From Nereocystis luetkeana (taxonomy: Eukaryota; Sar; Phaeophyceae; Laminariales; Laminariaceae): DNA of 64,000 nt. The position numbers were made by a program, and so were the translations under genes. Where the stretch lies: positions 3,281,586 to 3,345,585 of the forward strand of contig JARUPZ010000007.1 of the NCBI GenBank assembly GCA_031213475.1. Direction: 5' to 3'. Of the stretch, positions 2,935 through 61,600 are shown piece by piece. Position 1 is the first letter of the stretch. Every line of letters starts with the position of its first letter. The notes under the pieces were generated by a model. It was not told the DNA's origin and searched no databases. It saw nothing but the letters and a program-made list of their open reading frames with translations.

Positions 2935-5135
2935 CACATTTTGTGCGTACATACCTAGCCACAGCGAGTGGTTGTTCTGCTCGATTGCACAGTTGGAGGG
3001 GAAGTGTTATTCTAGACGGTGCAGACAGTATGTGGCAAACTGCCAAGATCAGTCCGCGGCAGTCGAACCGCACGCCGTCCACAGGTCATAAGTTACATAC
3101 GATGAAATACCAGGTACCAGATAATGTAATTATTAATACGTGCTTTACCACCATTCGTCGGCGGGGAGAAAACCACGGAGGACACTCGGGGCCTACGACA
3201 GCCTAGCAGATGTATATATGGGTATCATCCGGGGGAAGTGCTGTATGCCTAGAGGGTCACTTTTTTTCGTCAGGCGGGGCAATGTCCTTGGTTTAATATT
3301 CGCCGATCATAAGCGAAACGCCTCCGGAAGAGAGAACAAAGCACGGCAATATTTTAGCATGGTGTATTCCAGGTTCGAGAGGAACATGACGGGAAGGTAC
3401 CAAATCCATTTTCTTGCGGTTGGGCATTTGCCACGTAATATGCACATAAAAGGTGTACCAGGTCCAAAAGTGGTATACCAGGTATATACCGTTGATGACC
3501 TTTGCCTTGTGGGAAAACAAATCAAAACGGTGTATCACCTCATTGGGCGATGGATTATCCCTTCATGTGCAATTAGCTTGTTGTGGACGATCGATGTTGA
3601 TCGCTCTCGCCCAGGTCATCCAAGCCTGCGCCCCGCGTGCTTTTTCTTCCAACGACGAAGGGAGTAGACTATGCTCGAGAGCTATTTCATGTATACTACC
3701 CCGTCCGGTCTAAAGGAACAAAAAGGGTGCGTTATGTTACCTGCAATACGACACTAGGCTGAATGTGGGCGCGCAAATCGTATACCTGGTATTAAGTTGT
3801 GAGAGCAGGGCCAACGACATGCATTACATTGCTGTTCCATAGCTGTTCCCAAGTACCTGGTACCGTTTGAGGTAGATGAAACGACAAGAACGAAGGGAAT
3901 GAGGAGCGTGACAAACTCCTTGAAGTGATCGATTTCCTACTGCAACTGCATTTTAGCTACTGCGTTCGAGGTTTCCTCTATTTTCACTGTAAAGCATCCC
4001 AAACGGGGTGACGGGACTAGCAGCATCAACCGCTCGCCCGAGGCCAGCGGGGAAATTGTTTGTCAGCTCTATTTTCAAGTGGAATAGGTTGGATGAGATT
4101 CATTTTTGTACTCGTACGAGCGACCAGCGGCACAGCAGTGGCAAGGCCTTTCCTCCATCCCTCCCTCCCTTTCTTTCAAAACGGCTACGCCCATGCCCCA
4201 CGCATCAGGTCAAAGCCTCGTACCCAGCGAATAATGTGGTGCCCCGTGCCCGGAACACGTCGTCGCGATTGTGCTATACCGGCAATCCCTGAGAACGAGA
4301 GCTCCGCGCGAGACAAAACACAGTTTTTGGCATCCCGTATTTTCCCTGCCACTCTCGCTTCCTGTCTCTCACTGGGTGCGAGTGACGCCTCTCGAAAACA
4401 CAGCCCCACCTTTGTTTCGAAATAAGCATAGCATCAAGAAAACCCCCGGCGTATAGCCAATCAACTAAATACCTCACGCTTGTTTCTCAGCCGATCGTTT
4501 CGTCTCGTCGTATTTTTTCTTCCCCAGGTTTTGAGTCGCGCAGCAGTGCAGCACAACAAGGAGACGCGTGACAAAAAAAAAACAGGCTTGAAAGGTTAAG
4601 GTTGCCGAGCCCCCCCCCCCCCCCCCCCCCCCCTCAAGTTGTGGCTTCACTTAAAAGACTACCTCGGCCGGGCGCCACATCATCCGCGACCATGTTTCAA
4701 CCGTAACGAACACGTGGTCAACGGTTAAAATCGCCACCGTGCTCCGCAGGGAAAGCCCTGCAACAACGTCCCGGGCGGGCAGCGCCTCGCGCGGCTGCAC
4801 GCTTGACCCCCACCCCACCCCGCGCCTTCGGCTTCGAGATGCCACAAAAGGGAAACCGTCGATACTTAGGGTTACCCGCCAATTCTACAATTAAATAGCA
4901 ACACCCGTCTCTTGTTTTCATTCGAACAGCAGTTTTCGGCAAGGTCTCCCTGCTGCCAAAGTCGCGAGCCGGAGTCGTGAGCACAACACGCGTGTCGGGC
5001 GGGGCCGTGTGGCAAAGCTACACACGGTCCGAGCGGGAATTTTCAGACACCGCGAGGAATCTACACGCCCCTGCGACCTCGCTTTCGCTACGAAAGGCGA
5101 AAAAACGTGAGTAGAAACGGCACAACCATTAGAGC

Positions 5136-5218
5136 TACCACTCTGTCCCAAAATATAGACACATTTTGTATATAAATATTCAATAAAAATGGTGATTATA
5201 TTTCGGTACAGAGTAGTA
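5136..5218. mobile_element. Stowaway-like MITE, copy 1
   Basis: A short element with inverted ends CTCTGTCCCAAAATATA and TATATTTCGGTACAGAG, flanked by TA. A related copy lies at 16683-16767. The termini resemble plant Stowaway elements (ends rich in CTCCGTCCCAAAATATA), a Tc1/mariner-derived type. The two copies share the ACATTTTGT core but differ at many positions, so both look old. Confidence 0.6.
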
Positions 5219-11400: not shown

Positions 11401-13395
11401 CGAAAAAAAAAAGAGGTCTAACGCAGGCCTAACGCGGAAAAGAAGTAAGAGGCCCAACGCAGGTCAGGCACAGGCGCAGACGCGCAGAGACACAGGCACG
11501 CACACAAGACACACGCAAGGAACATCCACACAAAATGAACACATAAACACAACACCGAAAGTTACAAACTCATACAGTATCAGGGTACCTGGTACATGCA
11601 CGCACACACGCGCGGTCGTACACAAAAAACACGTACGAGGCAAGTCAGACACGCAACACAAGCGCGCACATACAGACGCGCACATACATACACCCCACGC
11701 ACGCGCACATACGCGGCGCAGGCACAGATGAAGGCAGAGGGAAACAACAGGCACCGACACACACACACAAAATATTTCTCGCGGAGCCTTAAAGCAGCAG
11801 CACGAAAACTGCACAAAACAAAAGGGTTCGAGAGCATATTCCTCATCTCCTGACAAACCACGATTTTCCGCTATGTGCGACACCAGTGCAATGGCGTAGG
11901 ACAGTCACGATAACGGAGAAGTAACGTCTGGGTCGATTTAACACCAGCAAGTGACGGTTACGCGTCTGTGAGGGGGAACACACGGATTAGCCGTTACAAC
12001 TGCACCAACGTTTCGAGGACAAGCTGCTCAATTCAAGACTCAGGGCCTTTCTTGGTCGCTCCTGCTGTGGTGGTGATGAGGATGTTGCTAGAAAAACCCT
12101 CAGCAGAGTTGCGACGCTTGCATCGCCCGCAAGACCCGCGAGCGAGCACGTCCCAATTGCTACACTCCTACTGGCTCCCGATCTGATACTATTTCAGCAT
12201 ATTCCCGAAAAGCGCGGGTTACGACGCAGCGGCAGTCACGCCGCACGTAAACCAGACTACAACATCACTGTTAACCCTGGGACTGAGCCTCGTTGTGGCC
12301 ACAAGCGTGTGGCAGATTTTAACAGATATTTTCTTGTCCACCAAACGTAACCCTTTAATAGACTGAAAACATCTATTACGGGGGACCCTAGTTAACAGGA
12401 CCTATGGTATACATAAAAACCTATATATTTAACCATTTTTACTAACAATATTTGGTCCTGTTAACTATGGCCCCCCGTAATAATAATAAGCCACTCATGC
12501 TGTCTCTTGTCCGAAAACAACTTGGAACATATTGCAGTATACCAGACCTACTGCGCGGCGCATCTGTAACAACGTTTGACACGTCCAGGATTGAGAAATT
12601 AGTGCTGCGTGGAATCACGTGAAACCACCGATATTAACTCCGATTTGCTACGTACCGGACTGTTTTCCCGTGTTGAAGGGCCGCGAAATCGACCGAAATG
12701 AGTGATGCTGAGGTAATTCGGAATGTTTGGAGGCCGTAGCAGCGCCAGTCAACAATACTCAACTGACCCTCAAAAGTGCAGCTACAGAAAAAGTACGTCT
12801 CGTTCTACCGCACGCCACACAAACGACCGCATCGCAGTCGCACACGCATGTGACTAATGACACTGCTGCACCTAACATCACTCGCTTTGCGACAACGATA
12901 CTCTCTATTACGGGGGACCATAGTTAATAGGACCTATGGTATACATAAACACCTATATACTTAATCATTTTTACTGACAATATTTGGTCCTATTAACTAT
13001 ATGGTCCACCGTAATAGCCTCAACATGAAAAAAAAAAAAAAAAAACGAAAAAGCGAAAGGGGCGGCGAATTTTTTGGTTCGCCACGGAAGAACGATTTGT
13101 AAGTGCTGGAGGGGAGAAGCGCGCCGCGAACGCCGGGGGAGCGACGCGACTATCACTGCCCTCCGGAGCGACGGCACGACGATGGGACGTAGCCGCGGCT
13201 TCGAACGCTGATGAGGAAGAAGCCTGCACCGATTGTAGTCTGGACGGGCGGGAGGGCAACTTCTACACTCAGCAGGAGGATCAGGGGATGCAGCTCCGCG
13301 AGCGGCTCAGTCCCGAGCAGCTGGAGCTCAAGAAAACATACGAGCCCATCGATCACTTCACTGCCACCATCCGTCTGCTGCTGCTGCTGCTGCTG

Positions 13396-13434
<39 letters not shown>

Positions 13435-15690: not shown

Positions 15691-16682
15691 GCGTCCTACT
15701 ATTCATAAGCACCGCGTGTGAGGCGGATACGCATATGGATGACAGCATAAATGAATTGATGTAATTTCCGGTCGAGCCACTTCCAGAGATAGCAATGGGA
15801 GTACTATGTAACTGCCTCTTGGGTGCCCTACCATGAACAAACACTACCAGGGTACGTGATACGGTCAATCCCCTTGTGCGGAGTAAAGGCTCTTCACCTC
15901 GCACAAATCATCCAACTAGACCACCAGCTGTGATCGACCGCCAAAAACGCAGGGGGGTGACAACAAAGGGGGGTGATCCCGCAAGCCACGACAATTGGCA
16001 TAATTTGACGCTTTCAGGCAGCTACCGGGGGCGAGTTACCAAGGGCGTGATAACGCACGCCGCGTTAATTGGCACCGCCGGGGTTTGCGGCGCGACGAGC
16101 TGGGGCGGGACCGCTGACACTGCTGCGGCTGGCGCCGCACTTGCTGCTGTGGTTTGGCACGGCACGCGTTGCCGTGGCTAGCTCGTCTAGCGCGGCTGCC
16201 GGAGCTTGAGGCGCGGGTGCAGCAGGGGTGGTTTGCGGACGGACTACGAACGAAGTGATCGTGCCCCCCCGCTCGTGGCAAAAAAAGCGCACCAGCAGAC
16301 CGGGTCGGGGCAGCTGGCTTCTCCGCGGCTACAGCCGCGTTCTGCCCACGGTGATGGGCCGCCCGTGCGGAAGGTTTCTGCGCCTGTTCGATGTTGTCGT
16401 TATTCTCCCTGATGCGCGCTGCCGCTGCCAAACGATAACGGTACCACGCTCGTACAGTCCTTTCGTGTAGGCCCCCCCGGGGGTGATACTCGTATTTTTT
16501 TATGTTGATTGGAAGGCGTATAGGCCCAGGGGGGTGGTAACTAACGTGCTCCGGTGATGAACTCGCCTTTTTATTTTTGTTTTGTTTTGATGATCGCGAG
16601 TGGTTCCCTGTCATGGGGTATCGAAGAGCAGGGTGGCATCTTATTACGTCATACCTGGTATTCGGTAGTCGCCTTGTAATAT

Positions 16683-16767
16683 ATACCACTTTGCCCCTAA
16701 ATATAAGCACATTTTGTGTATTAATTTCCAATGAATATGGTCATTATATTTCGAGACAGATCAAGTG
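16683..16767. mobile_element. Stowaway-like MITE, copy 2
   Basis: Related to 5136-5218: CCTAAATATAAGCACATTTTG at the left (shared core ACATTTTGT) and CATTATATTTCGAGACAG at the right. The ends are less well matched than in copy 1, so this copy is more decayed. Confidence 0.5.
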
Positions 16768-18264: not shown

Positions 18265-18287
18265 TACCTGGTACCTGGTACCAGGTA
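18265..18287. repeat. Three stacked TACCWGGTA units next to the LTR element
   Basis: Two TACCTGGTA units and one TACCAGGTA share their TA ends and form a 23-bp stack immediately left of the 5' LTR. A further unit lies just right of the 3' LTR (23525-23533). The LTR element has therefore landed inside or beside a cluster of this motif. Confidence 0.85.
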
Positions 18288-18733: not shown

Positions 18734-20188
18734 TGGGGCTTCAGCTGGGATCCGATGTTTACAAGTTGACACAGGTTGATAATTCCGGTGGAATCGCAGG
18801 TAGAAAAGTTCAGCAGCAAACACGGTTATTATCCATAATTCAAGTTCGTAAAATAATACCATATGGTACCAGGTACCAGGTACCCACAGCCCAAGGTACC
18901 TGGACTTTAAAATAAACTGAGCAGTCTAAACATGGATGATTTTCAGTCCTGAGATACTCTCGCTTCTGCTTGCTGTGTGCTGGCTTGTTCTTGACTTCCT
19001 TCTTGCTTCTTGAGCCCTTCCTGTGCTCCTGGAGGCTCTATTTTTGTCGCTCTGCATTCTTCGCGCAGAAACTTCACACAGAAACCGTTCGCGCAGACAT
19101 CGTATTCTACTTGTACCTGTGAATAATGCTGTAGTACCTGTGAACAATGCTGTACGTAGCTGCTGTAAATGGTACTGCCTTTGCTCGAGGATGTCGTCAA
19201 CGTTACTGCCTTTGCTCAGGGTTGTCGCTCTTGTCGCTCCATTGTTCTTACCCGAAAATGGCTCTCATATTGTACTTGAAAATAGAGTTCAAGACACCCG
19301 TACAGAACCACGCAGCAAGCTACGTAGTCTAAATTTGGTATCATTGGCATACTACCGGTACTGTAGGTCTGAAGACAGGATCCTTTTTCATTTTTTATAA
19401 TCGTAGCTGTTACAAATAGACTTGCTGTATTCCTTGTGCTACTCATAGCTGTTTGCTTAGCGTGAGGCACACGTACACAGGACACAACAACAACCGTCAC
19501 AAAGGCAAAAATGGTACACGTAAAAATACAGCAACAGCAGTAATACTGCTGTACCAAAATACTCGACTGGAACAGGTCCATGCACTTCAAGAAAGCCCCA
19601 AGTAGACACCATAGAAACAAAAACGCAATCCGTGCTATGATATACGTACAACAATGCAGAGAGCAAACGAGATTGAGATTCTCCCCACTTTAAGTTCGTA
19701 CGTCACTGCTGTTTTTTTGTTTGTGTACGCGACAATTTTTTGTGTTTACTGCCAAGCTAAGGGGGTGTATGTATGGTAAACCTGCTCGTAATTTGTAGGT
19801 ACCATACCAGTGCTGCCAACCATGACGAAGACTCCTCGAAACCAACGCCTGCCGAAGACTCATTTCACCATGACAATACACGTCAATCAATACGAAGACT
19901 CCTCGAAACCAACGCCTGCCGAAGACTCATTTCACCATGACAAGGCGGAGATATTGGCGAGCCAAGTAGGGATTCGGTGGAGGAGAAAACGGACGTTCGT
20001 GGTAGGAATCAAGGGAGGCCTTGCCACGAAGGGGAAGTTAACCGTTTGGAAGCGGAGATTGGAGAAGATAAAGCAACCAGTTCAGGAACTGGGAGAATTT
20101 CTGGGACGAAGAGGCGCATACTTCCTGAAGAGAGGTATCGGAGAGCGAGCGGTTTATTCGTTCAGCGAACCCATCATCTCTTTGAACC

Positions 20189-22672
20189 GTGTTCACATCA
20201 TGGGGGAAAAGCCAACCGAAGGGTATGTCGCACACTCGGCGGATACGGCACGTCTTGAAGAAGCTGAGGAGTTGCACTTCAAACGACTACGCCAAGATCG
20301 CCACAGGACAGGAACACTACGTGATCCCGCAGACGGTCAGCCAAAACGCAGCAGCGAACGTCATCGCAGATTTCACGTCTCCTCCAATGCTACGAGCAGT
20401 GTTAGTTGAACTAGCTGTTCAAGGCTTACTGGGAAAACCAGTGCCAAAAGTCGTGGAACTTGAAGGGCTGGCCTGCATGGTGTTTGAGGATTACCTCGCA
20501 GCAGTAGAAGCCTTGGGGGTGACGAGAGCGGTCACGAGATCGCAGGCGAAGGCCACTTCCCAGGAACCTGAGGTTGTCTGGGAGGCAGAACCACCGTTAC
20601 CTGAGGAGGAGGAGATGGATAATGCACCAGCGCAGGCAATCACTACTACTGAGCTACCAGTGGAAGTTGATCGTCCACGCAAACGCAGGGGACAGAGAGA
20701 GCACATCCCGAAACCGAAATGGCAACGAGATCCTTTGGAGGAACCACCGAGGGACACCAGCAGCCGTTCAAGCGGGTCAGGGAAAGAGGCCAAGGAGTCC
20801 CAGCGGTCGGAGTCGTCCATGCTGGAAAAGGTGGCAGCTATTCTCCGAGATACGCTACAACTGATGCAGAGGCAGTGCGAAGATATGGTACATGGCAGGA
20901 TTCGGAAAGAACTCCAGGAAGTGGGAAACCGAGGAGCAGGAGGTGGCGAATATGTTGATGGACGACAACGACCTCTTGTGGGTAGCACCTCTGGGAAAAG
21001 TCCCACGACTTGCAGTTCCCCAATCTCTCGTTCCAGGGACTATGGCGCTGGCACACAGCACCTATGGGCATCCAGGGACGGCAAGAACTACAGCCCTGGT
21101 TAGTCGTCAGTATTACTGGTCCACCCTCTTCAGGGACGTGAGAGACTATGTCCTCTCGTGTGGGTGCAGGCGTCGCAAGCGATCAGCGAGTCAACGGGTT
21201 GCCATGCTACCGGCGAGGTTTCTGCGACCCGGGGAGGTACTCGAAGTCGACATCCAGGACATGGGGGTGAAGTCGGACGCAGGCAACAAAGTTCTACTGG
21301 TGGCAGTCGACGAAGCCAGCAAGTTCCTGTTCACCTTCCCGCCCCCCACGAAAGAAGCACTCGGAGCAGCGAGGAAACTACTCGAGGTGATGCTTACTTT
21401 TGGGCTACCGCTGTATGTTCGCAGTGATCCGGGATCCGAGTTCACGGCAGAGGTGATGCAACACTTATGCAAGTGGTTGAACGTGGCCATCGCCTATGGG
21501 CCTGACGACCATCCACGTGCACAGGGGACGGTGGAGAGACTGGGGGGGTGGCTACACGAAGCACTAGGAGAACTGTGCAAGACCTGGCCTCGCAGATGGG
21601 ACGAGTACGTACAGCCGGCACTGTGGATCCATCGTACCACGCCGGACCTGCGCTTGCCGGGGAAGCCAACTCCCTTCCGTCTTTTCTTCGGTCGTGATGC
21701 ACGCACGTAACTTGATGCTACACACCCCGAGATCGATGGTCGTGATTTCAGGGGCGGAATGCACAGTTACGTGGCCGACAAACGTCAAGCGTACAAGGAG
21801 GTACGGGATGTACGGGAGGCTCTATTGAAAAGACATGATGACAGGAAGAAAACTCGTGAGAGTCGGAGTGCTGAAATCGGTCGGACCTCGGTAGGAACCC
21901 GTGTTGTTGTCGGAGACAAGGTGCTGGTGAAGGAGGCGGAGTCTGTGATGGCAAGGGAGGGGATACATCATAAACTAGCCCACGAGCACTGGACCGGACC
22001 TTGGGAGGTGACTGAAGCTGTCTTACCAGGACTCAGTTACATCGTCACGATGAATGGGCGAGGGATTCGCCGACGGAGGGCGTCAGCAGCGAACATGCAA
22101 GATGTTCCACTCACGTCCGGACAACCTCCGTCACGACCTCGAGGACGAGTTTTGCTCACCTGGCATGGGGAGTTGACTTCGGACTTGCGGAGCCGTCGAT
22201 TGTAGCGTCGCCTATATATACCCTAATAGACAGAGATGCTGTGATGGGCCAGGGCAACGCTTGGAAGTGGCGATACAAGGGACGATTCGTGGATGGCACG
22301 GAGTCGCAGTGGCTGTCCGAAGAGGAGGCGCGAGACAGTTTAGCCCCCTTACAGATGGACGTTTTCCACGCACTGCTGTGGGGGACGTATCACGGAGCGG
22401 AGTGCCGGGCAAGGCCGACTTCGATGCTAACACGGAAGGAGAGAGATGGGATCGACCGTGAGCATGCGTTGAAACAACACCCCGTGGGAACCGTGATCTG
22501 GAGGGAATTCGCGGACGCTGGAGGAAACAAGAAGCGTCACCTTTCAAAGATCTTCGACTACAAGTCACCGTACTGGCGGGTTCGGTACGCAGACGGAGAT
22601 TGGGAGGAGCTCAACAAAGGTGAGATCCTGAAAGCTAGGAAAACCGGAAATTCGCAATCCGGTTCCCCGTAA
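20189..22672 (+). pseudogene. Ty3/gypsy pol remnant: integrase and C-terminal domains
   Basis: Fossil coding region of the LTR element. The best part (about 20905-21710) shows an integrase zinc finger (HSTYGHPGT.. and CGCRRRK), catalytic-core blocks (VLEVDIQDMG, YVRSDPGSEFT, HPRAQGTVERL) and WIHRTTPDLRLPG. Downstream come GDKVLVKEAES and HEHWTGPWEV (GPY/F-like), and a separate frame at 22241-22672 with WKWRYKGRFVDGTESQW, chromodomain-like, and YWRVRYADGDWEELN. A short direct duplication lies near 19821-19935. Treated as a broken relic. Confidence 0.8.
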
Positions 22673-23520: not shown

Positions 23521-23748
23521 GTAGTACCTGGTATTTTTGTGCTTGTTTGTACATTCATTCGTACATATTTATACGTACGTACCCATATTTGAAGTGAAAG
23601 CTCCGAAATCGCATTGCGAATAAAAGGCACCAGGCACCTGGTTCTTTTGCGTCGTTTGTTTTCTACATACGAGTACGAATATCATACCGTCAGCAGCCGT
23701 GAATACCAACGAACTCAAATATTTGTATAATTCTTCACGTAGTGTTAA

Positions 23749-23866: not shown

Positions 23867-24629
23867 GCAGTAGTATTAGTAACAACCTACGAAGCCGCGC
23901 CCTACGGAGAACAGAAAGAGATAACTGCAATATAGTAATAGTAGTTGTCCTAAACTATGTCGTTTAAAGAACGACACGTTGCTACCGGTGGCATTGGTGC
24001 ATCCGCGAATAAGAGTAACTGCCCTGCCCACGGAACACAGAAAGAGAACAGTTACTACTGTAGTAGTAGCTGTTGTCCTATATTGGGCGTCCCAAATAAC
24101 GCATTATTATGTTATACCTATATTAAATATACTGATGATGTACCACGGTATACATAGCAACAATAATAGCAAAAAAAACAGAGAAAACAAAACAGCAGTA
24201 CCTGGTATAGACTAGTCGCCCTAAAGCATGCAACATTTGTTTTGCAATACATATTACGGCGTTAACAACCAACACAACTTGAAACAAAACAGAAGTAGTA
24301 GCAGTAATCCTAAGGTAGTAGTATGTCGAAAGAAATTGGAGTGGACCTTCACCACCACACACCCAACTGCCAAGTGGCGAGAGAGGATAGAGATCATGTT
24401 TTATTTTTCGTTTTTGTTTAAAATAATAATGCCATCCTCGAAAATACGGAGCACCGGGTGCGAGGTCCCCGGTGCCAGAAAAAAAACGCATGGAGGCCCG
24501 AGAAAAGAAGGTTCGAAAGAAGCAAGTTGGCGTAGTCGATCCATTTGTCGTCCCCGCTTTGTTTCCACTCATTTCACACCTCGCTGTGGTCGTGTCGACT
24601 CCCTAAGACGACTCGACCGGCGCCTGGTG

Positions 24630-24846: not shown

Positions 24847-25454
24847 CAAAAGTCCCGACAACAAAGCAAATGGAAGCACGTCTGCCGCCGTTTTTTTTTC
24901 GAGGACATTTCGCTTTTCTGCTCTAGCTCGACCGTTCCTTGCGAGCAAAAAATTGGCAGACCGGATATGAGCTCCTTGGTGCACTCCCGTGAGTGTGCCA
25001 AAGCGACAGCACTTTTCGTGTCCTCCTTCATATCAGACCTTGTCGCTGAAGGTTGAAAATGTGGTTCCAGGTGCTTGATTTTTCGGTTTCTTGTACTGTA
25101 GTCGAGTATTTTTTTCTGCTGTAGAACGAGAAGGAGGAACGTACTCGTTACGACTTCTGGGTTCCTCCAGCTCTCGTTCTACAGCAGAAAAAAATACTTG
25201 GCTACAGTACAAGAAACCAAAAATTCAAGCGCGTGGAACCACATTTTCAACCTTCAGCGACAAGGTCCGGTATGAAGGAGGACACGAAAAGGGCTGTCGC
25301 TTTGGCACTCACGGGAGTGCACCAAGTAGCTCATATCCGGTCTGTCAAATGTTTGCTCGCAAGGAACGGTCGAGCTAGAGCAGAAAAACGAAATGCCCTC
25401 AGAATAAAAACGGCGGCAGACGTGCTTCCATTGGCTTTGTTGTCGGGACTTTTT
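24847..25454. repeat. Near-perfect 608-bp foldback (inverted repeat with 20-bp loop)
   Basis: The left arm 24847-25140 and right arm 25161-25454, each 294 bp, are reverse complements with only scattered differences. The loop is 25141-25160. The outer ends are AAAAGTCCCGACAACAAAGC and its complement; the inner ends are CTGCTGTAGAACGAGA and its complement. The arms contain no recognised gene. A transcript would fold into a hairpin of nearly 300 bp. It could be a foldback transposon, a recent inverted duplication, or a small-RNA source. No target duplication is evident. Confidence 0.85.
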
Positions 25455-28890: not shown

Positions 28891-31800
28891 TCACCCGGGC
28901 GCCGCGGACGCGCGCTCAAGCGCGGCAAGGCTTCCCGGCGGCCTCCTATGCTCCCCCCCGTCCCCTCCCCCCCCTCTCATACCGCTTCCCCCTCCTAGGC
29001 CTCCCGGGGGCGGGCCCGTGCGGCGCAGCCTTCCCCAGTCTCGTTCCGTCTCTCTCTCCCGGAACTCGCGATCGCGGAAGTTCGCGTCCCGTTCTCTGTC
29101 TCTGACGGTAGTGTCTTTCCGCACCTGGCAACCAGCATAGCCGCGTTTCGTCAACAGGGGAGGGGGGACGTGGGGCGGGGACAAGGGAGAGGTGGAGCGG
29201 GGGAGGGGCAAAGGGGATAGGTGGAAGGGGGAGGAGGGAAAGGGGAGGTCGGAGGTGGGGCGGCGGAGGGCGCAGGGGAGGGGAGGAGAAAGAGGATGCG
29301 TGAGCTTTGGTTCACACCAACAAGTAAAACATTCACACCAACTCGTAAAACAAGCATGCACGCAAGCACGCGAGGCGGGGTGTCGTGCCGATCGCACCGG
29401 AAGTGACAGGCCCGCGTGCTCGGAGTGCCATAGGCGGCCCCGTACCAGCGCCGCCCACATGCCCCCACCCTTCCCCTTCCAAGCACGAACCACACCAATC
29501 AACAGCAACAACAATGGACACGACGACGGCAACAGCGGCAATACTAACGATGACAATTCCAACAGCAACACACAACGACCAATGCAGAAAACAAACACAG
29601 CAACCAAGGACACACACGAAGAAATGGAACACGACGGATGCACAACCAAGCGGAGCCGAAACCCGGCCCAACCCAACCGAACAAACCAAGCCGAAACCAG
29701 CCCCAACCCATCCCAAACCAACTCAACTCAACCCTAACCTGTACAGACGCAACCCACCCTTCACATTCGAGCAAATAACCTTACCCTCCTTCTCCAGACC
29801 TTTCTCACGGTCTCCGAGGCTACGCCAACTCAACCCAACCCAACCCCACCCGACCAAAAGCGTCCTAAAGTAGGCTGGCTCTGGTTAGGGACTCGCGCTA
29901 TTTACGGGGGGCGTTTGTAAATAGGACCAGATATTGTTATTAATATTACGGGGGACCATAGTTAATAGGACCTATGGTATACATAAAAACCTACCTGGTA
30001 TATATTCAACCATTTTTACTGACAATATTTGGTCCTGTTAACTATGGTCCCCCGTAATAGTAAAAATAGCGAAACATACAGGTTTTTGTCTGTACCGTAG
30101 GTTCTATTTAATATGGCCCCCCGTAATAGTGGGTACTCTACAGTAGCGACGGTCGCAAACTTAGTGCGCTCGCGAAAGGCGAAAAAAAAAAAAGGAAACA
30201 AACACAAAAATCGGTCGGGCGCCGATCGATCTTCGCGGCTTCGAACAGCTTGTTCTGTAGTAGTTAATAGTATCTCCGGCTACATCTAGGTCAAAACATT
30301 CAATCACGCCTCGGACAGTAACATCGATCTCCACTTCATCTAGATATTTCAAGGCAGAGATGTGTTCGCGATAATGAATACTCTAGCTCATGTCGCCGGG
30401 TGGGGCCTGTACAATCGGCATTCTCTAGCACTCTGGGTCGGATCTGTGCTTTGCAGATCCTCGTGCACAACCTCTCACAACTGCAGGTGACGGACTAGAT
30501 GATCTATCTGCAGATGGATAGATCATGAACTGTCCGAGATTTGATTTCAATGAGGTGTACATGCCTCATTTCAAAAATAAAGGGCATGCCTTAACTGGTA
30601 CCTGGTACCTGGTAACTTTTAGACGGCCGTGTAAAAAGAGAAACTTCTTCCGCACTAACCTTCCCCCACTTCTCTAGATCCTTCTCGCGGTCCCCGCGGT
30701 CGCGCCCGAAGTCCTTCATCCCCCCGCCCCCGTAATCCTTCCCGCCTCCCTCATCCGCGCGCCGCTCCGCCCACCTCCCGGGGGGGGGACGGAACCCCCC
30801 CATCCCCCCCGCCCCTCCCCCGCGGAAACCCCCCGTGTCGCGCTCTCGTTCCCTTGCCTCGGGCGGCCCCTTGGCCCAGGTTTCGGCCGGCATGTTGCCC
30901 GACGCCAGCGCCGCGCGATCCCCGTCCTAATGTCGTGGGCAAAACGTTGTTGTTGATGTTGCTGTTGTTGTCACATTATCATCTCCGAAAAATCAAGTCG
31001 GTTGTCATAGGAAGGGCTCCACCTCTGGAGTGGAAGAATACCTCGCGCGGAGGAAAATAGATGAATAATCCTGTGGTATATATACATGCCTGGTAGTACA
31101 TGAACTAACCGAAGCAAATCGTACACCTCAGACAACGCAAATCAAAGATAGAAATCAGCAAGTGAAACAAGGGGATTTTGTCAAAAGCGCGAGGGTTACA
31201 TAGGGTGTGTGCGTAGCCTCTCGACCCGAAATAAACATTGTTTTCTTGTCAGCTGTCACCGAAAGGCGTGCAGCACAACTAGGGTCCGAACTGGCGGCAG
31301 CCGCGTCTCGGGGAAGGACTATGTAACACATGAGACTAATCCCAATCTACAGCAGATCCATGTACTGTAGATCCTAACCTGATACTGACCTGCCCTTCTG
31401 GGAGCTTGTGCAGGATCTGTACAGCATAATTTATCCAACCCAGGACGCATGTCCTACTGTTGATCATGATGTAGGTTGTACGGCTCCCACCCATCAACAT
31501 GAGCTAGATCATACAAACCATACAGATCAGGAATAGATTATATATCTGCCCTGATAGATCTAGATCACGCAGGGGAAATCGATGATCACGATGTGTGATT
31601 GACTCGAAATTAGAGTAGGAAAAAATTGTACAATATCGTGGCAACAAAAAAAGAAGGCAAAACTAAAGCTCGTCTTGTGATGGTCATCATCGCTTCCCCC
31701 CCCCCCCCCTCCCCCTCAGTGCTGCAGCAGAAATATTACCACTCGAGATCCACTAGTTAGTACCCAAAATACTAGGGTACATGCATGCAGTACTTCTAGA

Positions 31801-40180: not shown

Positions 40181-42889
40181 GGGCTACGTGAAGTGGTGGG
40201 TTGAGGCGGGGTGGGTTGGATTCATATCAGCGAAATATACAGAGGCGAAAACTATTTAGTAAAACACGGTTGGGAACACCACATGAACACCACCCACGCG
40301 GCGCCGCACGCCTCCAGCATTTCCCCGCTGAGTGGGGGCTAGACGTGTGGTCAAGCGCCCATAAACCACAAAACCGTCGATTGTGCGGGGCTTTCGCGGG
40401 GAAGGGAGCGGGCGAGAGGTGGGGTTCACACCGGATGGGAACCAAGGGTCTTGTGGGCAGGGAACTCGAGCGGTCTTCTTGGCATATTGCCGGGACTTTG
40501 GACACAGCATGAATTACTGCTGAGGTGCCAGGCACACGGTTCCAAAACATGGCACCTATACTTACTACGTAGCTGGTATGAGATAGCCCCTCTGGTACGA
40601 ATACAGCAAAAACATGACGTCACGCCATATAACTTACAAGCATCATGCGGGTCGAGGAAGGCGATACTCTAAAAGGCAGTTTCATAGGCAATTGACACTA
40701 AAAATATCACCACCGCCTCATATGTACCTCATCGATCCAACCATGGAGAAAGTGCCTCACGAAAAAACGAAACAACACAGGTCCGCCGCAACTCGTGTGA
40801 AAACATGTACCGTACAATACAAAGCTGTTACAGCAGAGGCTCCAGAAGGTGTGGGGTATTTCGTCTTGGAAACGTCGCGATGCGATAGGGGGCAGGAGAC
40901 TACGACAGCATCTGTTATCAGGTATCAGTTAATAGTATTAAAAAGACGGGGGAACACAGTAATCAGAACAAAAAATTGCGTGTAACCACAGGAGGATATA
41001 CTCTACGATGCAGCACTAGAATCGATGCATGAGCCACTACCAACTGCTGTAAGCTACTATACTACTGTCGTGGGCCTACGACTGGCTATAGAGTTGTTGT
41101 ACTGTAGAAGCGCATCGAGTATAATACGCGTGTGTAAGAGGGGCTAAGTAAGAGGGTTGGAGGTTGGTTGGGTTGGTGGGGACGCGTTGTAATTAATTAT
41201 TTTCACAAATGAGGGACGCAACATGGTATTTGGGTTCGTCATGGGTTCTGAAGACTATACCTCCCCGTAATAACATGACGATTCAAACTCGTAGCTGTCA
41301 TACGTACCAGTATGTGTTAGGGTTGGTTATGAAGGCTTTATAAAAAGTAGTCAAGTGATATTAGGGCTGGTCTGGGTTGGTTGTATTTTTTTGGTGAGAG
41401 CCCTGTTGCGTTACTTCTGTTTTTATTTACCAGGTATGTTCCTGGCCGCCCGTCCGCCCGTCCGTCCGTGTTTATGTTTCAAGCAAAAAGGAACAAGGGA
41501 TGGACGAGAGGAACGAGAAAGGAGAAGAGCGAAAAGTGACGCAACCAATCGAGTCGACCGCTAAAACACAGAGAAAAAAGACAAAGACGATCACGATCTC
41601 AAATCTCGAATCACACACACCACAACGGCATCGGAGCTCTACAAAAACCGATTGCCAGTGTCAGGATACAAAAAAAGTGCAACTCCGGACAGCAGCAGCA
41701 AATAACTTAACGTTCGCTATGGCTGCTGCTGCTGCTGCTGATGTTGCTGCAATACCGAGGCAATAGCATTGTTCTTGTTGTACTGCTGCTGCTGGGGTGC
41801 TACAATGCAATCAACAGAGGTATTGCTGTTGTTGTAGACTCTACATATCGCTGTTAGTAATGTCGGTGCGCACAAGTAGCTGGCGGCTGCCGCGTTTTTG
41901 CGTTAAAAACTGAAGCATCCACCATGGGGGTCAATCCTACAATATCTCCTCCGATCCTCAACCCATCAAAGGGTCTCATCGTATCTGAATACGAGCACAA
42001 AAATGGGAGTCTCTAACATTGACGTCGCCAAAAAAAAGCAAGACACTTTCGACTTGCCCGCACCGTTCGCCGAACGCGACCCCGAAACGCTCCGTATACA
42101 GTTGTGGTTCCTATATAGTGCCGGAATGTATGCGTCAGCCAACAATACCGGCACTATAGCGCCAACCGGCACTATTCCCTCCGCACACCAGCCACACTGG
42201 TTAATTCCATTTGTGGCAAGTGATTTTACCGGCAGTATAGCGGGCAGGCAAGAACTATTAATAAACCGTCACTATGGAGGGACCACTACTGTAATCAAGC
42301 CAAACAAAAGACAGGCAAAAGTGCATGGGTTGGATTGGGTTGGGTTGGGTTGAGTTGGGTCGGTTCACACCTAGCACCAACGCACACAAGTTGACGACAT
42401 ATGCAAATATCATGCCATACGCGAGTTTCTTTCAATAGCGACAGCTATGATACGTATCATACGATACTTTCCGTTTTTCAATATTGTTTTACCCCCCGCC
42501 CTCCGCACAGAAGAAGTGGCAGCAGCATTCGTACACGCACCGTATGTTTTTGTGCGCTGCTGTAGAACAAACAGACTATACATCCACGTGAAGCTGCAAG
42601 TGACACTTTCAGAGTCCAGAGGCGTGTATGCCAAATACAGAGAGGCAGGTCCGCGTCAATACTATAGTAGTCCAACACACAATACCTGAGTGCACATATA
42701 CAACACCTGCGAGTACTTTGACGTTCCAAGTACCACTCTGCGGGTCTAACAACCTGCTGGCTGCTGGCATTACAGCAGTAACAGCAACAGACTCTATTCC
42801 GACTGACACTTTTGCGAGCCTGGTGAAGCAAGCACCAAAACACTACTCGTACAAGGCGCCCTTTCAACGGTCTAGATACTACAAATAGT

Positions 42890-43250: not shown

Positions 43251-44559
43251 TGGTGGGGGTAAATAAATAGTCCATGTCAGGTATCACTCTGGACGGAAAT
43301 ATAAGGATCGTTTAGAAATCAGTAAGAACACCAATAGTCCTTATAATTCCGACCAAAGCGGTACCCCCTCTAGTATATCACACCCCACAGCAGCATGTAC
43401 CACCCGGGTGGCCGATATTCTGAAAAGAGAAAGCACCACCCGAGTTAGCACCCGGGGCACGGTGTACACCACACCCCCTGAGGAAATGCATCATACCAGG
43501 GTAAACAGTGTGACGCCCCCAAGTCTTCCCCACTCTACGCCTTCCTTGAATTATGTTTAGTGTCTCTACCAACATCTCATTGCATGACGCTTGAAACGTA
43601 TTTGCCTGTTTTCCTGCTTGTTCGTGCGCTCATCATGCCTTTTTCGCCACTTATCGCTTACCGGTACATGCTGCAACTCAACAGCCCGGGCTGCTTCGTA
43701 TGATCTGGATGGCTGTTATGCTCGTTGCTGTAATCGTTAATTTCTCCCTCCATCCCCCTCCCCAGCCGTCGTAGTCCCAAAGGCAGAGCTGTGAGTTGGA
43801 TTACTTCTACAGTAAAAGCCGACAGCTAGGTATTGGTTGGCTAGGTACTACCAGGTGTAGTGTTAGAGCAGCGGTGCCAACCAACCGACCAGTTGGGTGT
43901 GCATGTGTACGGAAGGCTTCCTTGCTACGGGGTGGGCATTAATTTCCCCGTGAGATCACTCGCTCAGAGAGGGAGGGAGAGCTGAGAGGTCTGCCGCAAC
44001 ACATGGCGCATCAGACCCCTCGCCATCGACACGGTGCTTCGCGAGGCAGCTACTGCTGTAGCAAGCAGACGGAAAGTACAGCCAACGCGTAGCCCTACCC
44101 TGAGGGTGTATTGGTACTGTAATTCAACAGGGGTACCATATTGATTAAATGGTAAATAAATCCCTATCCCCCTGGCATGAATGCCATCCATCCGTGGTCC
44201 ATGGGCACACTTACCGGTACAACTCCGCCCGTCTTTTCGCGGTTGCAGCCCGCATTTTTCATGTACGAGGTATGCATAATATGTTGTACCAGGTAGATGA
44301 TAGAGTGACAAAATCCGCGCTCTGTTACTGCGCGCTGCGACTGCTGCCGCTGCTACTTCTTCTGCTGATATTGCTGCTGTTCCTGTTGCTGCCGCCTCTA
44401 TTGCTGTTGTTTCTCTTGTTTTGCAAACTTCGACTACAAGCAGTACGATCGAGTACAGTATATACAAGTACAGCAGTTAGAGGTCGGTATCAGTTTTGAA
44501 AACGCTCTGATATGATATACCAGGTATGAAATATTTGTAAAAAAAACGTGATATAATCA

Positions 44560-44592: not shown

Positions 44593-45584
44593 AGAAAACC
44601 CTCCCAGGGGCCCGAGAATCTCCCGAGATCCACCTTCTCCGAAGATCGGCATTCTTCTAAATACCTGGTACCTGGTAATAAATAAGCCGACATGGCTCTA
44701 CCAGACAGCAGTAGCTATAGGCTACCAGGTATCTAGCTCGCACACAATGAGAGAGCCATACATGGCTTGTCTGCCGTAATCTACAGCAGTCGTACACCTG
44801 CCGTATCACCATCGCTCTTTACCACCACCCATCACCACCAGCAGCGATCGCCAATGTCTTCCGCGCGGCGGGGGAGTTCCCGTTGATTTCACGGTGAAGA
44901 TTAATGGTGTCGTCAGTGTTATTATGACAGCGTTCATGCTATACTCTATTTCGAGGACAACAAAAGCGGTTGAAATTGTTGCGAGCATTTTTGACTGGTG
45001 ATTGCACACAGTTGCTGTGCATGCCTTGGGCCCGAGGTATTTGTGATTGTTGCGTGCGGAATACTTTATAGCAGTGTGCGCCTTGTTTATTACGTAGAAG
45101 CGAAACATATTATTTATGCTGTACCAGGTACTACGTGCTGGTACATATACCGTACACACCTGGTTGATGGTATTATAATAATAGCCCACTGCTGTACCCA
45201 TGGTATAGTACGAGTAGGTGGAGGCGAGTAGAGCCTGGTAGAAGAGCACCTCAAACACTATATCTCTACCAACTTAAATATTTGTCAAGGTTTTCACCAA
45301 CTCGGCATCATGCGATGAACACATTATTGTTGCCTGCGACTTTACTGCTAGCTCTTCTCGCTGGCTGTGTGCATCATCACCCACCGTTCGTCCCAGCGTG
45401 TGCTCGCGAACGCTAGACGAGTATTACTATATAATACGGTTTGCCCCACGGACGCTGGATACTATGTCTGAGTGTTTGACTATTGGAATATGTGCTGATA
45501 CGAGCAGTGCGAGAGCAGTACACCCCAACCCAAGAACGTCCTTGGCTTCTGGCCGCTAAAAAAGCAGGAATGGTGACGTTTACA

Positions 45585-49817: not shown

Positions 49818-55101
<5,284 letters not shown>

Positions 55102-55662: not shown

Positions 55663-58600
55663 GCATCCGGCCACCACCTGGAACCAGAAGAAAATCTGGG
55701 AGGCCGAGCAGAAGGACGCCAAAGATAAGAAGGACGAAGCGGCCGCCAACAAAGAGCTGAAGAGAGACAGTGACAGACGCTTCTACGAGCACCTGGCCGG
55801 AGGCAAGGAGCAGGACCCGTCCTCGACTGCTCTCAACTTTATGTACGCTCCGCCTCCCGGGTTTCAGCAGGTGACTACACCAGCAGTACATATGTAGTGT
55901 GACAGGCAGCAGCAGCAGCGGTGTAGCAGCTATGTCACACCACAGACAGCAGCACACACCTACCTGGTATAGCAGTAGTGATGTGTGTGATTACCGACGT
56001 CGTCCCGACCAAGATGTCGGTTGACGGCATTCTTGCCCCGCGACGGACAGCCGTCAACGATAGCCGCCACGGAAAGCCCTCGGGGTGTGTCTAAACAGAA
56101 TCGAAAAGCGCAATCGAAAATCGAATTCATTTCGATTTCGATAAAAATTCGCCCAGTGTGTCCGAACAGGATCGAAAAGTGAAAATAGAAATCCAGGCGG
56201 AAAGCAACGGAGAGCACAACCTACTTGGGCCGTCCGCAACTGTGCACACATGCCGGCAATCTAGCGCTCGGTAACACAGATCCACCACAGGAGCAGGCAA
56301 ACGCGACGGCATTTCGATTCCGGGAGGTCGTTGGGCCTCCCGTGGAGGTGGTGGCGCGTCGAACGTTGACGCCCCGAGATCAAACTTTTAAATTATACTG
56401 AGAACGAACTTCCGACCTCGTTCTCTGGTGTATCATCCTGAATTGTCCTCAAACTATGTTCGCGTAGGCTCCAACGCCGGAAAACAAAGGCCCGAGAACG
56501 TCGGGGCTGGTGTTGTGGTTCGCCTGCTGGCTGTTTACGGGGGGGGGGGTCTGTGCGGCTGTGTTGCCGTGCTAGCTGTGGGTTGGATGCTGTGTACGGC
56601 GGTCCAGATGTGATATATTTTGACGTGGCTGCGCTGACCAGTAGGGCGCGCTGAATGGTTGCTGTCCGTGCTTTCGATTTCCTGTTCGAATTTCCAGCCG
56701 TCAACTTTTTCATTTTGGCATTGGGTCGTGAATGGTTGGTTTTCTCGGAACCTGAAAAACGAACATGTTTTGAACAGGGACCAATTAGCGCCTTGTTTAT
56801 TTTCATTTCGATTTTCGATTTCGATTCTGTTTAGACAACACCCTCAAGGCGTGTCCAAACATAATCGATAAGCGAAATCGAAGATCGAATGCATTGCGAT
56901 CTCGATAAAAATTAGCCGAGGTGTCGGGAGGTGTCCGAACAGAATCGAAAAGTGAAAAGTAGAAATCCAGGCGAAAAGCAGCGGCGAGCACAACCTACTT
57001 GGGCCATTCCCATCTGTGCACACATGCCGGTAATCTAGCGCTCGGCAGCACAAATCCACCACAGAAGGAGGCAAACGCGACGGCAATTCGATTCCAGGAC
57101 GTCGTTGGGCCTCCCATGGAGATGGTGGTGCGTCCAACGTTGACGCCCCGAGATCGAACTTGAAATTAGACTGAGAACGACTTCGTGTGTAGGCAAAAAC
57201 AAAGCCGTCTCGTACAGATGACGAGTACTGCGGGACATGGCGGGAAAATGGGATGGTTTATGGTCTGTCTAAAAAGTCACGGACGCCGGCGACAATCTCA
57301 ACCTTGCTTCGGCTTGGCAACAAGAAATCTTTCTTCCTCCGGTACGACCCGATGTCTAGCTTATCCACACTCGCACATAACCTAGGCATGGGCTGAGCAA
57401 CTGACCAGATGTTCATCGCATCTCCTCTTTTGACCGCCCCGAACGATATTGAATCGCGATGCCGGCGATGCCTATGGGTCGGACTGCTGCAACAGCCGCA
57501 GGAAGAGGAGCTCAACGATGACGACGAAGCTGTCAAGAAGTTCAAAGCGTGAGTGCGGGGGTTGCTTTTTTTTCTTGTTTTGCGTCCGTGACCAAAACCT
57601 CTTTTTGTGAGAGGAGCCAATCAGAACTCTCGCCACGTTCTTTCGGATGGTAGCGCTGCTGTGCACGTCGTATATACCTCAAGTCAAGAGTCACGCTTAC
57701 AATCGGAAGTAAGACGCCCCCCCCTGTGCCCTGGTTGTTTGAAACTATTCACGTGTAGTATAGCCCCCCCTGTGCCCTGGTTGTTTGAAACTATTCACGT
57801 GTAGTATAGGGACATGTTAGCTACTGGAGGTTATATCCCCTGGAAGCCTTACCGCACATGTCGGGGGCTAAATACTTGGAATTAGAACTGCCCAATGTTT
57901 GCAGTAGTATTCATGGTAGGCTGCCAAACATTCCCCAACCACGTCTTGTATGGTTAGGCAATCGCTCATTACCCGCACCAGCGACGAACCTCGCGAAAAA
58001 TCAGAGGTTTACGATATTCGTTTCAACGTAATCGCGGCCAGTGTTAGAAGGGATAGCGCTTGGTAGTCGTCCCGACGTCTTCTCTTCCACCCGATGCATG
58101 CGCGGTGGCGATCCAGCTCCACTTCAAGTAGCTTTGTTTCCAAAAAGTGGATGTAGTTCCCGAAGCGAGACCCTGCAAAGGTTTGTCATAACTTCGGGGC
58201 AGGCGGAGGGGCAACACCACCACTTTATTGTTAACTCAGACTCCAGAATGTTGATTGCAACGGAGCGCGACGACGAGATGCCTCCCGGAAATCGCGTGAC
58301 GTGAAGTAAGCACGTTGCTTGATCCCCATGCGCGATAAAGTGTACCAGGTACACCTGAAGCAGGCACCGAGGAGGGGGGGGGGGGGGGGTGCAGAGAAAA
58401 TGCGTTTAGTGAATTCGAAAATAACAAAGAGGCATTGATATTACTACATCTACTACACTATGCTACTGCCGATAAAATTGGGTATAGATGGCCATAAAGG
58501 TGAGTATTCGAAGTAACAAACAGAAAGCACCAATCTCCACGTGGCCTTCTCGAAACGAGCTCCTTGTTCGTGCTGCGGGCTCGAGCAAGACCGTGGTAGA

Positions 58601-61600
58601 GCTTAAGGGGCCCGTCCTCTCCCTCTCTGGCCGCTGTGTGCAGGCTGAATTGCCGAGGCTTGCAAATGACGCACTACTATTGGCGAGTATGGCGAGGCGT
58701 CTGCTTTTGGAGTCGTCCATACAATGGGCTATGTCATTCATTAAAATAGTGGCACGCAACCAGTAATACCCGGGGACTGCCGGAGGAATTTGAAGCTTGT
58801 TTTTTTTTCCCGTGCCCATCGCCGCCGGCGTCTGGAATTAATCGTCACTGGATGGGAAGGAGCACAGAGCAAGGCGGAGGAACACTGCTTCGTTATGAAT
58901 TGCGGTGATTTGGGTTGTTGTTCTGATTTTGGACCTGCTCCCCCCCTTCCTCTAGCCTGGAAACCACGTCCGCCCTTCGCCCGATATATGCCGCGGGGCT
59001 CGTCTTACGACGTATCGGCGCCTCACCGGGCTTGAACGACACACCAGCTATACGTTTCATTGCATCAGGGACCGCTTGCAGATACAAAACCCTTCTTTCC
59101 GACCCCTCGCGCGATTGAATTTTTCCTCTGATTTGGGTGTGTGTTTGTTTGTTTGTTTGTTTTTTTTTGTTTTTTTTTTCAGTCTCGCCAAGATGAAAGC
59201 CGACCCTAACTTCTCGGCGGCGACGAGCTGTTCGGAGCTAGAAAAGCTGGTGGGGAGGCGAAAGAACCCGGGCGTTTCCCTGGCGGAACAGCAGGAACGG
59301 TTCCCGTTTCTCAAGGACGCGCCGGTGGAGCACGCGTACGCGGCGGGGGTGAAGGTAGGGGTTCCTGCGCCGGCTTCCTGCAACGGCCGTTGTAGAATGG
59401 TTCGGGTTTTTTTCCTTCCCGCCACCTGGTTGCGCGTAAACCGTTATGGATGAACCATTACGGGGGACCATAGTAAATAGAACCAAATGTTGTTGGTGAA
59501 AAAATTTGATTATATAGGTTTTTGTGTTTACCGTAGGTCCTATTAACTACGGCCCCCCGTAATAGCAGTATGTGTCGAACGGAGTTTAGTGGTGATGGTT
59601 GTGCGTGAGCCGGCGTTGATGAACGGCAAAGCCCCATTGATAACTCGATTGAGCAGGCGGGACATTCCCCTCATCGGTGATTTTGAGCGCTATTCGGCGT
59701 TGGTGGCCTGACTCGGTTGAGCGGGTATATCGGGTTTTTTTTATGCATCGTCTGCCACGCGTCGACGAGCAAGCGCCTGATGCCGCAAGGAAGTATGAAA
59801 TGGTTCAAGGCAAGGCTCGAACTGGTCGGTTGGCCCTCGCCTATTGCCCTACTGTAGATTTCTCTGCTCCGGTACTACATCACGTCGGCCATGTTTCATG
59901 ATGGCAAACTCTATCTATCCTGTAGCGCTGTGCTGACGTTTGTGGGGACGAAGTACTTGGAATTAATGTGGCATTATTTTTTTAGGGGTGTGACGCATTT
60001 GAGTTCACTTGTGTAGGATCGCCAACCTATCACAATCTCGGACGAGTTTTGGTGCGCCGCGGTGTGTGACAAGAGACCGGCGTTTTCTTTCCCGCCGGAC
60101 ACCCGGGAGGCTTTGAGATGCGATCGAAAGTAGGCGTGGGATGAGAGAAACGTGGTTTTGGCACACGGGATAATTATACGCCCGTCCCTTGGTTTCTCCC
60201 GTGGTCCCTGGGTTTCATCCCGGAGAGTTGCTTTTTTATTTGCATTGTTGGTGAGCCGCTTTAAACACGAACATAGCTTCATTCGGTTAGTTACCTTTGT
60301 TTTCTTCGGCGGCCGATGTTTTTTTCCTTTTCTTTTTTGATGCTATTACGGGGGACCATAGTTAATAGGACCTATGGTATACATAAAAACCTATATATTT
60401 CACCATTTTTACTAACAATATTTAGTCCTATTAACTATGGTCCCCCGTAATACACTGTCCCTCAGGGTGTGTCTCAACCCCCCCCAGAGAGCATTGGAGC
60501 GAGCCGAATGGAATATTATTTGCCGCATGAAATGGTGTTGATTGGTTGTGGGAAACGAATAGATTCAGTGCGGCCCGAGAAAAACAGTATACCAGGTATC
60601 TAGGAAGAGGAAGAAGAAGTGTTGCACCCCTTTTTCTTGTTTAGGAGGACCGAACGGCCCGACCGATCGGGAACAAATAGCAGATTATTTGATGTAGATG
60701 GACACCACCGAAGATGGATGTGGACACCAAGTCGCCTTGGCATGTGCAAACGATACCGTTCGTGCCGATTCGGCCGGCGAGGCCCAGGATTCTGCATGGA
60801 ACCAAACACATTGTTTTAGATAGGAACGGAACGAATGACCACGAGCAGCCTTGTTCCATTCCGCTCGCTCCCTTGCTCTTTGGTGGGAGTCAAGACACGC
60901 CCTCACTACGCCCGCCCGTCACCCCTCTCCCTCCGTCTGCCCCCCGCACGCCCGTCCCCCCGCGTTTTGCTCGACGTCATTGATGCCGTATAAACGATAA
61001 TAGGTGAATTTCAAGCCGTTCAACAATGTGGTTCGGCACGTTAGGTGCATGCGGTGCGAGGAGTGGGGACACCGCAGCGGGGACCGAGAGTGCAAGCGCA
61101 TAAACGACAACCCGAACGACTACGAGCGCCGCCTCCGCGAGGACCCGATGTCTCACTTGGTGTCCGCTTCCGATGGAGGGCTTGGGAATGCAGGAGTCGC
61201 GGCGGGGGGCGACGCCCTCGGAGCGAGTTCTGTGGGTGGTAACCCGAACGAGGACGCGGACTCGGCGTTCGTGAACAGTCTTTCGTCGAAAAAGAAGCGC
61301 CGCCTTTTGAGGATGTTGCAGAAATTGGAGGCCGGAGAGGGGCAGGGGGCGGGGAAGGAGGAGGAGGACAAGGGGAAAAGGAGAAAGAAAGAGCGGAAGA
61401 GCAAGAAAAAGAAGAGTGGTAAAGAAGATGGGGGTAGCAAGGTAAGGCCGGGCGGGGATGATGGCGACGGCAAAGGGCGGAACAAGGAACGGGAGAGGGA
61501 GGAGAAAGACGAGGAAGTTCCCAGCGATGGTAGAAATAGCGGCAAGTCGAGAAAAAGGAAGAGGGTAGAACCGCTGCACCCGTCTAGGGTCGTATCCGAA

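Follow-up and report, generated by a model that had tools for sequence, protein, structure and literature searches.

A TA-flanked nine-base word in the genome of the brown alga Nereocystis luetkeana as the probable excision footprint of a 79-bp mini-transposon

Organization of the window

The window analyzed here (64,000 bases of Nereocystis luetkeana; GenBank assembly GCA_031213475.1, contig JARUPZ010000007.1, positions 3,281,586 to 3,345,585 of the forward strand) contains 33 exact copies of the word TACCWGGTA (W being A or T), whereas 100 dinucleotide shuffles of it gave a mean of 0.28 and a maximum of 3. We consider this word very probably to be the excision footprint, in the following called scar, of a mini-transposon around 79 bp long, which moves by cut and paste and inserts at TA; copies of it are likewise found in the window.

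Exact word search, in which no strand is assigned, places single scars reading TACCAGGTA at 1516-1524, 3108-3116, 3476-3484, 32781-32789, 32814-32822, 38937-38945, 41428-41436, 44287-44295, 44518-44526, 44723-44731, 45122-45130, 58343-58351, and 60590-60598, and single scars reading TACCTGGTA at 3783-3791, 3854-3862, 11586-11594, 16652-16660, 23525-23533, 24199-24207, and 55961-55969. A further TACCTGGTA scar (29992-30000) lies within a miniature inverted-repeat transposable element (MITE) of the TATTACGGGGGACC family (29944-30066, plus strand), which was recognized by self-comparison and whose sister copies have no scar. Three stacked scars with common TA are situated at 18265-18287, and two each at 18867-18882, 25765-25780, 30599-30614, and 44662-44677. 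Scars of a minor type, TACCAGGGTA, were assigned by word and flank analysis at 15845-15854 and 43494-43503 (no strand), and the minor-type word TACTGGTA is stacked on a TACCAGGTA scar at 36997-37011 (no strand), beside a probable eIF4E exon. The 79-bp family from which the scars would derive is represented by a copy with TA on both sides at 5138-5216 (plus strand, profile E 1.3e-13), by diverged copies at 16686-16760 (plus strand, profile E 1.1e-7) and, with TA ends, at 43285-43361 (minus strand, profile E 3.2e-7), and by a weak, diverged copy at 34413-34490 (minus strand, E 5e-4 in one search and profile E 0.03). All 26 start points of the word given in an initial annotation, made from the letters of the sequence, are present, as are the stacks described there; the site at 1516 had been missed.

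In the genome (465,085,209 bases in 1,987 contigs), the word occurs at 182,395 sites, whereas its reversed form occurs at 1,744, such that the massive over-representation proposed initially holds in the window and in the genome. The exact copies alone add up to more than 1 Mb of sequence, and the tandem form TACCWGGTACCWGGTA is found 15,917 times, compared with 2 for its control word. The central base is almost always A or T (TACCSGGTA, S being C or G, occurs once in the window). For closer study, loci were sampled from the genome (labels L followed by a number; C followed by a number denotes its contigs), and samples of 264, 276, and 338 kb were used. Exact scars reach a density of 392 per Mb in the sample, and variants with one substitution exceed chance (around 45, against 86 exact copies), which suggests a broad range of scar ages of roughly 5% per site, a rough estimate from small counts.

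That no site lies in an assigned exon, as had been stated, was confirmed as far as the Pfam-matched stretches of 10 open reading frames of the window are concerned, which include 0 of the 33 sites; these intervals were worked out by hand. Among the matches are a kinase (around 52931-53122) and the integrase of a retroelement (H2C2 zinc finger and rve core) at 20865-21710 on the plus strand, with the matched stretch at around 21015-21500. Two pieces matching Pfam IF4E on the minus strand, at 36887-36976 (below the Pfam cut-off) and at 38618-38776, are likely eIF4E exons, and the scars at 36997-37011 are situated directly outside the first of them.

Repeat copies with and without the word

When 276 kb of sequence were aligned to itself, 25 motif sites were spanned by at least one alignment. 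Wherever repeat copies align well, the word constitutes a gain of 7 bp at a TA (TA becoming TA-CCWGG-TA). This is found at GTGTA|TATTTT of the satellite in L008, which exists with and without the gain, at TTAATA|GGACC of a MITE (L013:8077), and in a dispersed repeat (L011:1185 compared with L010), whereas L023:4498 is consistent with a 7-bp gain and has a diverged flank. At an unrelated repeat site, CAATACAAAATA|ATCCGTATGC, all three inserts are CCWGGTA. In the window, removal of CCTGGTA from the scar at 29992 yields CCTATATATT, as in the sister MITE copies, just as the initial annotation had read the nested MITE at 29944 (insertion of CCTGG with duplication of TA). Copies with well-aligned flanks thus agree with the expectation of a difference of exactly 7 bp at a TA, with a single 9-bp exception in L007, to which we return below.

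The satellite of L008 (L008:2700-9100) is arranged in tandem, with CCAAAGTG recurring every 240-280 bp or so and with units that carry TACCAGGTA, TACCAGGGTA, or plain TA; a scar is present in 9 of its units. The sequence CCAAAGTG had been considered as an end of the element and was rejected, being part of this satellite.

Spectrum of inserts at one MITE site

The MITE family TATTACGGGGGACC, to which the host copy of the window belongs, has an internal TA (GTTAATA|GGACC) that is empty in 15,770 exact copies. With 1-30 extra bases allowed at this TA, 705 copies match, a number that overstates the inserts, since about 8 of the 100 listed run on to a second GGACC without any insert and some others are short slips. 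Among these 100, CCWGGTA accounts for 43, either as such or in exact tandems, followed by CCCTGGTA (5), CCGGTA (5), and CTCCGGAGTA (2), and, once each, by CCAGTA, CTGGTA, CCAGGGTA, CCCGGTA, CATGGTA, ATGGTA, and others. A second pattern, restricted to inserts that start with CC and whose fourth following base is not T, found 122 copies; the 100 listed comprise CCCTGGTA (29), CCGGTA (16), CCAGGGTA (7), CCAGTA (7), and CCATGGTA (2, a third such string being a deletion), compound, mutated, or rarer forms with one or two copies each, around 18 cases, for the most part deletions, and two long inserts. CCATGG (2) and CCACTGG (1) are among the rare scars of this set.

Such varied insert lengths point to imperfect end joining after excision, whereas a binding site of fixed length would not give this fringe. 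A selected protein-binding site, or a methylation-type motif of the CCWGG kind, might be suspected from the near-palindrome and from its extreme frequency; however, in satellites and MITEs the word originates by a gain of 7 bp that duplicates TA, and the related lengths have one target signature (see below), such that we give this explanation hardly any credence. Of the two alternatives named initially, other machinery and a selected protein-binding site, both fit the data worse than an excision footprint.

The scars at the MITE TA are skewed: CCTGG and CCAGG stand at 30:11, and CCCTGG and CCAGGG at 30:9, i.e., with the same skew (Fisher p 0.80). As both elements found at this TA (L025 and L026, see below) are also in one orientation, the similar skews suggest that the two ends of the element are unlike (CCAC and CTGG) and that its orientation can be read from the scar. 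An origin of the central W by mismatch repair, from an A-A pair in analogy to Sleeping Beauty, is an alternative that was considered; equal skews fit unlike ends better.

The MITE family concerned here, the second one noticed, has TATTACGGGGGACCATAGTTAATAGGACC ends and TA flanks and is very abundant genome-wide (in the window at 29944-30066, 60344-60452, 12374-12482, and elsewhere), with 15,770 exact occurrences of a single arm sequence. Words of another kind, TACTCCGGAGTA and TACTCCGAGTA, which look like products of a Stowaway-like TA element whose ends are CTCC, exist in a few copies as inserts at the MITE TA (C2:1545935, C3:1739694, and C3:3616376) and at L022:7371.

The 79-bp element

The two long inserts are full 79-bp elements situated at the scar-bearing TA, with TA on each side, starting with CCACTC and finishing with GACTGG. 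The same family is found in the window at 5138-5216, in L005, L013, and L023, and elsewhere. A DNA search led to 36 fetched places, 35 of them distinct (L072 repeats L056), and of these 35 copies, 28 start with CCA, 30 finish with TGG, and 24 are flanked by TA at both ends; the two nested copies are to be compared with the one TA of 15,770 sister sites. The length is near 79 bp in most copies, and the ends are alike across subfamilies, with a variable middle. The terminal inverted repeats (TIRs) measure around 20 bp (CCACTCTGACCC..AAATATA at both ends) and are close to CCA(C/G)TCTGACCC(R)AAATATA(R)GGA; together with the adjoining target, the element end reads TA-CCASTCTGACCC. In L081 (C12:4554960-4555210), an element of this type is split by another short inverted-repeat insertion.

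CCWGG can accordingly be read as the junction of two element ends, either CC and TGG or CCA and GG. Of the initial proposal that a TA-inserting element leaves bases of its ends on excision, the principle is retained, given that an element occupies the scar-bearing TA; the ends of the CCWGG type expected for the full elements had to be abandoned, the real ones being CCAC... and ...CTGG or ...GTGG. The data show that the element inserts at TA, what its ends are, which scars occur, and that scars and element have a common target. We infer that a transposase acting in trans would cut out the element such that each flank retains its outermost two or three bases (on one side CC or CCA, on the other TGG or GG). 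End joining would then yield mostly CC-TGG or CCA-GG, less often CC-GG, CC-CTGG, or CTGG, and rarely CCA-TGG.

The element combines a duplicated TA target, terminal inverted repeats, and a short footprint of terminal bases between two TAs, with the manner of cutting deduced from the insert spectra at two repeat sites. TA, TIR, and footprint make it a likely, if unproven, non-autonomous member of Tc1/mariner (IS630).

A profile of the element finds 11 places at E < 0.01 in 264 kb, as compared with 0 in the reversed control; two of the 11 resemble a local duplicate in L024. Element density is thus around 42 per Mb as against 392 exact scars per Mb, a ratio of roughly 1 to 9 that is itself rough, as copies that have diverged strongly escape the element count, and mutated or minor scars the scar count. 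The element appears to have transposed much more frequently than it was retained, so that scars exceed detectable copies. A vast excess of scars over filled sites and a stereotyped junction would also be expected from programmed or somatic excision, in which the germ line keeps elements that the sequenced tissue loses, as with the internal eliminated sequences of ciliates. Yet the scar has been copied along with the satellite in the 9 units of L008, scars are stacked in tandem, and single-substitution variants are in excess, as if scars were inherited and decaying, which renders somatic excision very improbable.

Target signature and stacking

The excision of the 79-bp element gains independent support from the sequences around the TA. 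Flanks were compared for 88 motif runs (176 flanks, L008 excluded) and for the 59 TA-bearing flanks among 70 element flanks. After the TA, on either side, a pyrimidine (Y) is found at +2 in 0.81 of the scar flanks and 0.86 of the element flanks, T at +7 in 0.55 and 0.64, A or T at +8 in 0.85 and 0.86, and TA at +7 in 0.31 and 0.34, respectively. For the scars, TA at +7 is the highest value among offsets 2-39, the remaining offsets ranging from 0.02 to 0.19; for the elements, TA is also frequent at offset 2 (0.31), with 0.03-0.19 at the others. The minor scars exhibit TA at +7 as well: TACCGGTA in 0.36 of 28 flanks, TACCCTGGTA and TACCAGGGTA in 0.42 of 12, and TACCAGTA and TACTGGTA in 0.25 of 40. 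Unrelated words of the form TA-N-TA are without the signature (TACAGTA 0.08, TACGAGTA 0.10, TACATA 0.07, and TACGTA 0.10), and none was seen for TACCATGGTA, which has only 2 flanks in the sample. TACAGTA and TACGAGTA, although enriched, were for this reason not counted as scars of the 79-bp element. By this common choice of target, the element is connected with the scars and with the main minor scars independently of the end sequence.

Random insertion at TAs would give an estimated 1,300 tandem pairs or so, as compared with the 15,917 observed. In 59 tandem places tallied, the central base is the same in 40 and different in 19, and these mixed tandems indicate that independent insertion is common, with slippage probably adding to it. 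Growth of a 7-bp microsatellite by slippage from rare seeds would account for the surplus of same-unit tandems and probably contributes some stacks; as 77 of the 88 runs are single units that arise by insertion at TA, it could hold only for part of the tandems, and as a general explanation it deserves next to no weight.

Under excision of the 79-bp element, a scar would leave R-TA (G-TA) and, at a distance of 7 bp, another TA, i.e., one half of the preferred target. Re-insertion beside an old scar would hence be favored, and many of the stacks could be explained in this way. Scars situated within 80 bp of element copies number 10, where 2.2 are expected, whereas clustering of scar runs within 100 bp is not clear (7 pairs, with a random mean of 3.8 and 10 as the largest of 1,000 runs). 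More tentatively, and with slightly less than even confidence, the element may be described as an excision-dominated transposon that hardly accumulates and hops incessantly, its scars recreating half of a TA-N5-TA target and seeding by themselves a 7-bp lattice, and that would be among the larger sources of small insertions in its host. Relative to the earlier proposal, the scale, the approximately ninefold excess of scars, the target spaced by 7 bp, and the stacking by re-insertion are new.

Search for a transposase and a longer partner

Several observations weigh against the origin of the scars from the 79-bp element. At L007:117 the difference between copies is 9 bp, not 7, in a TATA context, and the alignments at L007:4713, L009, L010, L020, and L022 are too diverged for judgement. 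Of the control-like words, TAGGACCTA has TA at +7 in 0.61, being part of the host MITE, and TACCGCGGTA in 0.38 (8 flanks). Filled sites are few at the tested TA (2 of the 100 listed of 122). Most fetched copies finish with GTGG, yet an origin of CCCTGG from CC and CTGG needs a CTGG end, so that either the subfamily ending in CTGG would have to be the active one or the additional C would stem from elsewhere. Searches by Pfam, TIR profile, and end pattern found no transposase linked to the element ends: PF13358 gave 0 matches, PF01359 also 0 (with silent controls), and PF03184 gave 28 genome-wide, the element ends not being seen in the 6 loci read. No longer copy with the element ends was found by TIR profile or end pattern either. 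Finally, TACCWGG not followed by TA occurs at 29 per 10,000 TA, compared with 11-21 for other dinucleotides, and this mild enrichment of half-sites leaves room for a rare element with CCWGG ends.

Alternatively, the scars could come from another, unseen TA-inserting family, e.g., a longer autonomous one with true CCAGGG ends and overhangs of 5-6 nt, with which the 79-bp element would share only the target preference, by use of the same enzyme. Annealed overhangs of 5, 6, and 4 nt from a CCAGGG end would give CCWGG, CCAGGG/CCCTGG, and CCAG/CTGG, and both the mild half-site enrichment and the failure of the searches to find an autonomous element agree with it. However, full 79-bp elements occupy the scar TA, and the CCATGG (2) and CCACTGG (1) scars fit ends of CCA...TGG and CCAC...TGG. 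Moreover, the 94 half-sites (both strands, 276 kb) have no common inner sequence, except for those in the satellite of L008 and in some small groups of repeats (L015/L022 and L022), by which an abundant element with literal CCWGG ends was rejected. We therefore regard another family as unlikely, if less so than the remaining alternatives.

The TIR profile gave 46 matches over 338 kb, 32 of them in short pairs and 14 single and mostly weak. A distant pair of weak matches in the window (31223 and 34493) was not believed. An end pattern avoiding the common MITE interior was found at 12 places; the 8 fetched are all short elements (L081 carrying its nested insert, L085 being compound). Of the other 4, C2:9588879, C19:3321503, and C23:5136203 belong to copies obtained before, which leaves C8:5600051. 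Inverted pairs of the form TACC...GGTA number 31 (at most 3 mismatches in 16), several of them being scars or MITE arms, and one pair, CCCGTCGACATCCAGC, recurs in two loci (L010 and L022). The 28 matches to PF03184 (DDE_1, pogo-type), some in open frames of 350-425 amino acids, e.g., at C1:8320630 and C35:5112140, constitute a candidate source of transposase.

Comparison with other transposons

The scars resemble the footprints of Sleeping Beauty and Frog Prince (Tc1/mariner), which read C(A/T)GTA, in the TA target and its duplication, the residue of terminal bases, the ambiguous central A/T, and the origin by end joining; they differ in having five bases, CC(A/T)GG, instead of three, and in their 182,395 exact copies (PMC3878927). 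Passer, of the pogo superfamily, shares a TA target inside a wider preference and short footprints; its footprints measure 0-4 bp and its TA is embedded in the palindromic preference AAGTACTT, whereas the dominant scar here has 5 bp, and Y next to TA is preferred together with T or TA 7 bp away (PMC9976928).

Stowaway elements of the Triticeae are likewise short, TA-flanked MITEs whose scars are short terminal fragments, and insertion next to an old scar has been reported for them; five distinct scars in one intron are described, in contrast to the genome-wide set found here (PMC1925063). Stowaway proper was rejected as the identity of the element, since its ends read CCACTC/CCAGTC (CCACTCTGACCC) and not CTCCCTC, the TIR given for rice Mariner-type elements (PMC4423477). 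A whole-genome comparison in rice, similar to the present one in its genome-scale view of Mariner-type MITE excision, found 94 excisions, most with deletions or filler and 8 perfect, and Mariner insertions exceeding excisions by around 2.6-2.8 to 1, whereas here scars far outnumber elements (PMC4423477). In Ectocarpus, another brown alga, a transposon survey counts almost 12,000 Mariner-Tc1 copies, mostly non-autonomous, with an example of 217 bp and its 4.4-kb autonomous partner; the words 'footprint' and 'excision' do not occur in the text examined (PMC12477816). Our literature search, which most subscription papers lay outside, found no report of the TACCWGGTA word or of such a scar set.

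A study usually yields no more than a few transposon footprints, the 94 excisions found in rice being an example (PMC4423477), whereas this one genome appears to preserve around 2 x 10^5 scars with a readable spectrum of repair. If this is true, it would represent a fossil record of transposon excision of unusual size. Excision versus retention, the outcomes of end joining, the choice of target, and re-insertion could then become statistically measurable, and this in a lineage with little experimental transposon biology. Annotators of such a genome should be aware that an enriched word resembling CCWGG may be a scar rather than a regulatory motif. In genes, the 7-bp scar is a frame-shifting mutator to look for.

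Further repeats and gene families

Nested inverted repeats with arms of 148 and 137 nt (93% complementary) are situated in the window at 24848-25453, and in L015:1800-5978 several nested inverted pairs indicate an inverted-repeat structure of around 4 kb. The EsV-1-7 repeat family is expanded in brown algae, and its profile (PF19114) matched all 150 scored candidates (of 1,710) and was silent in 14 of 14 controls.

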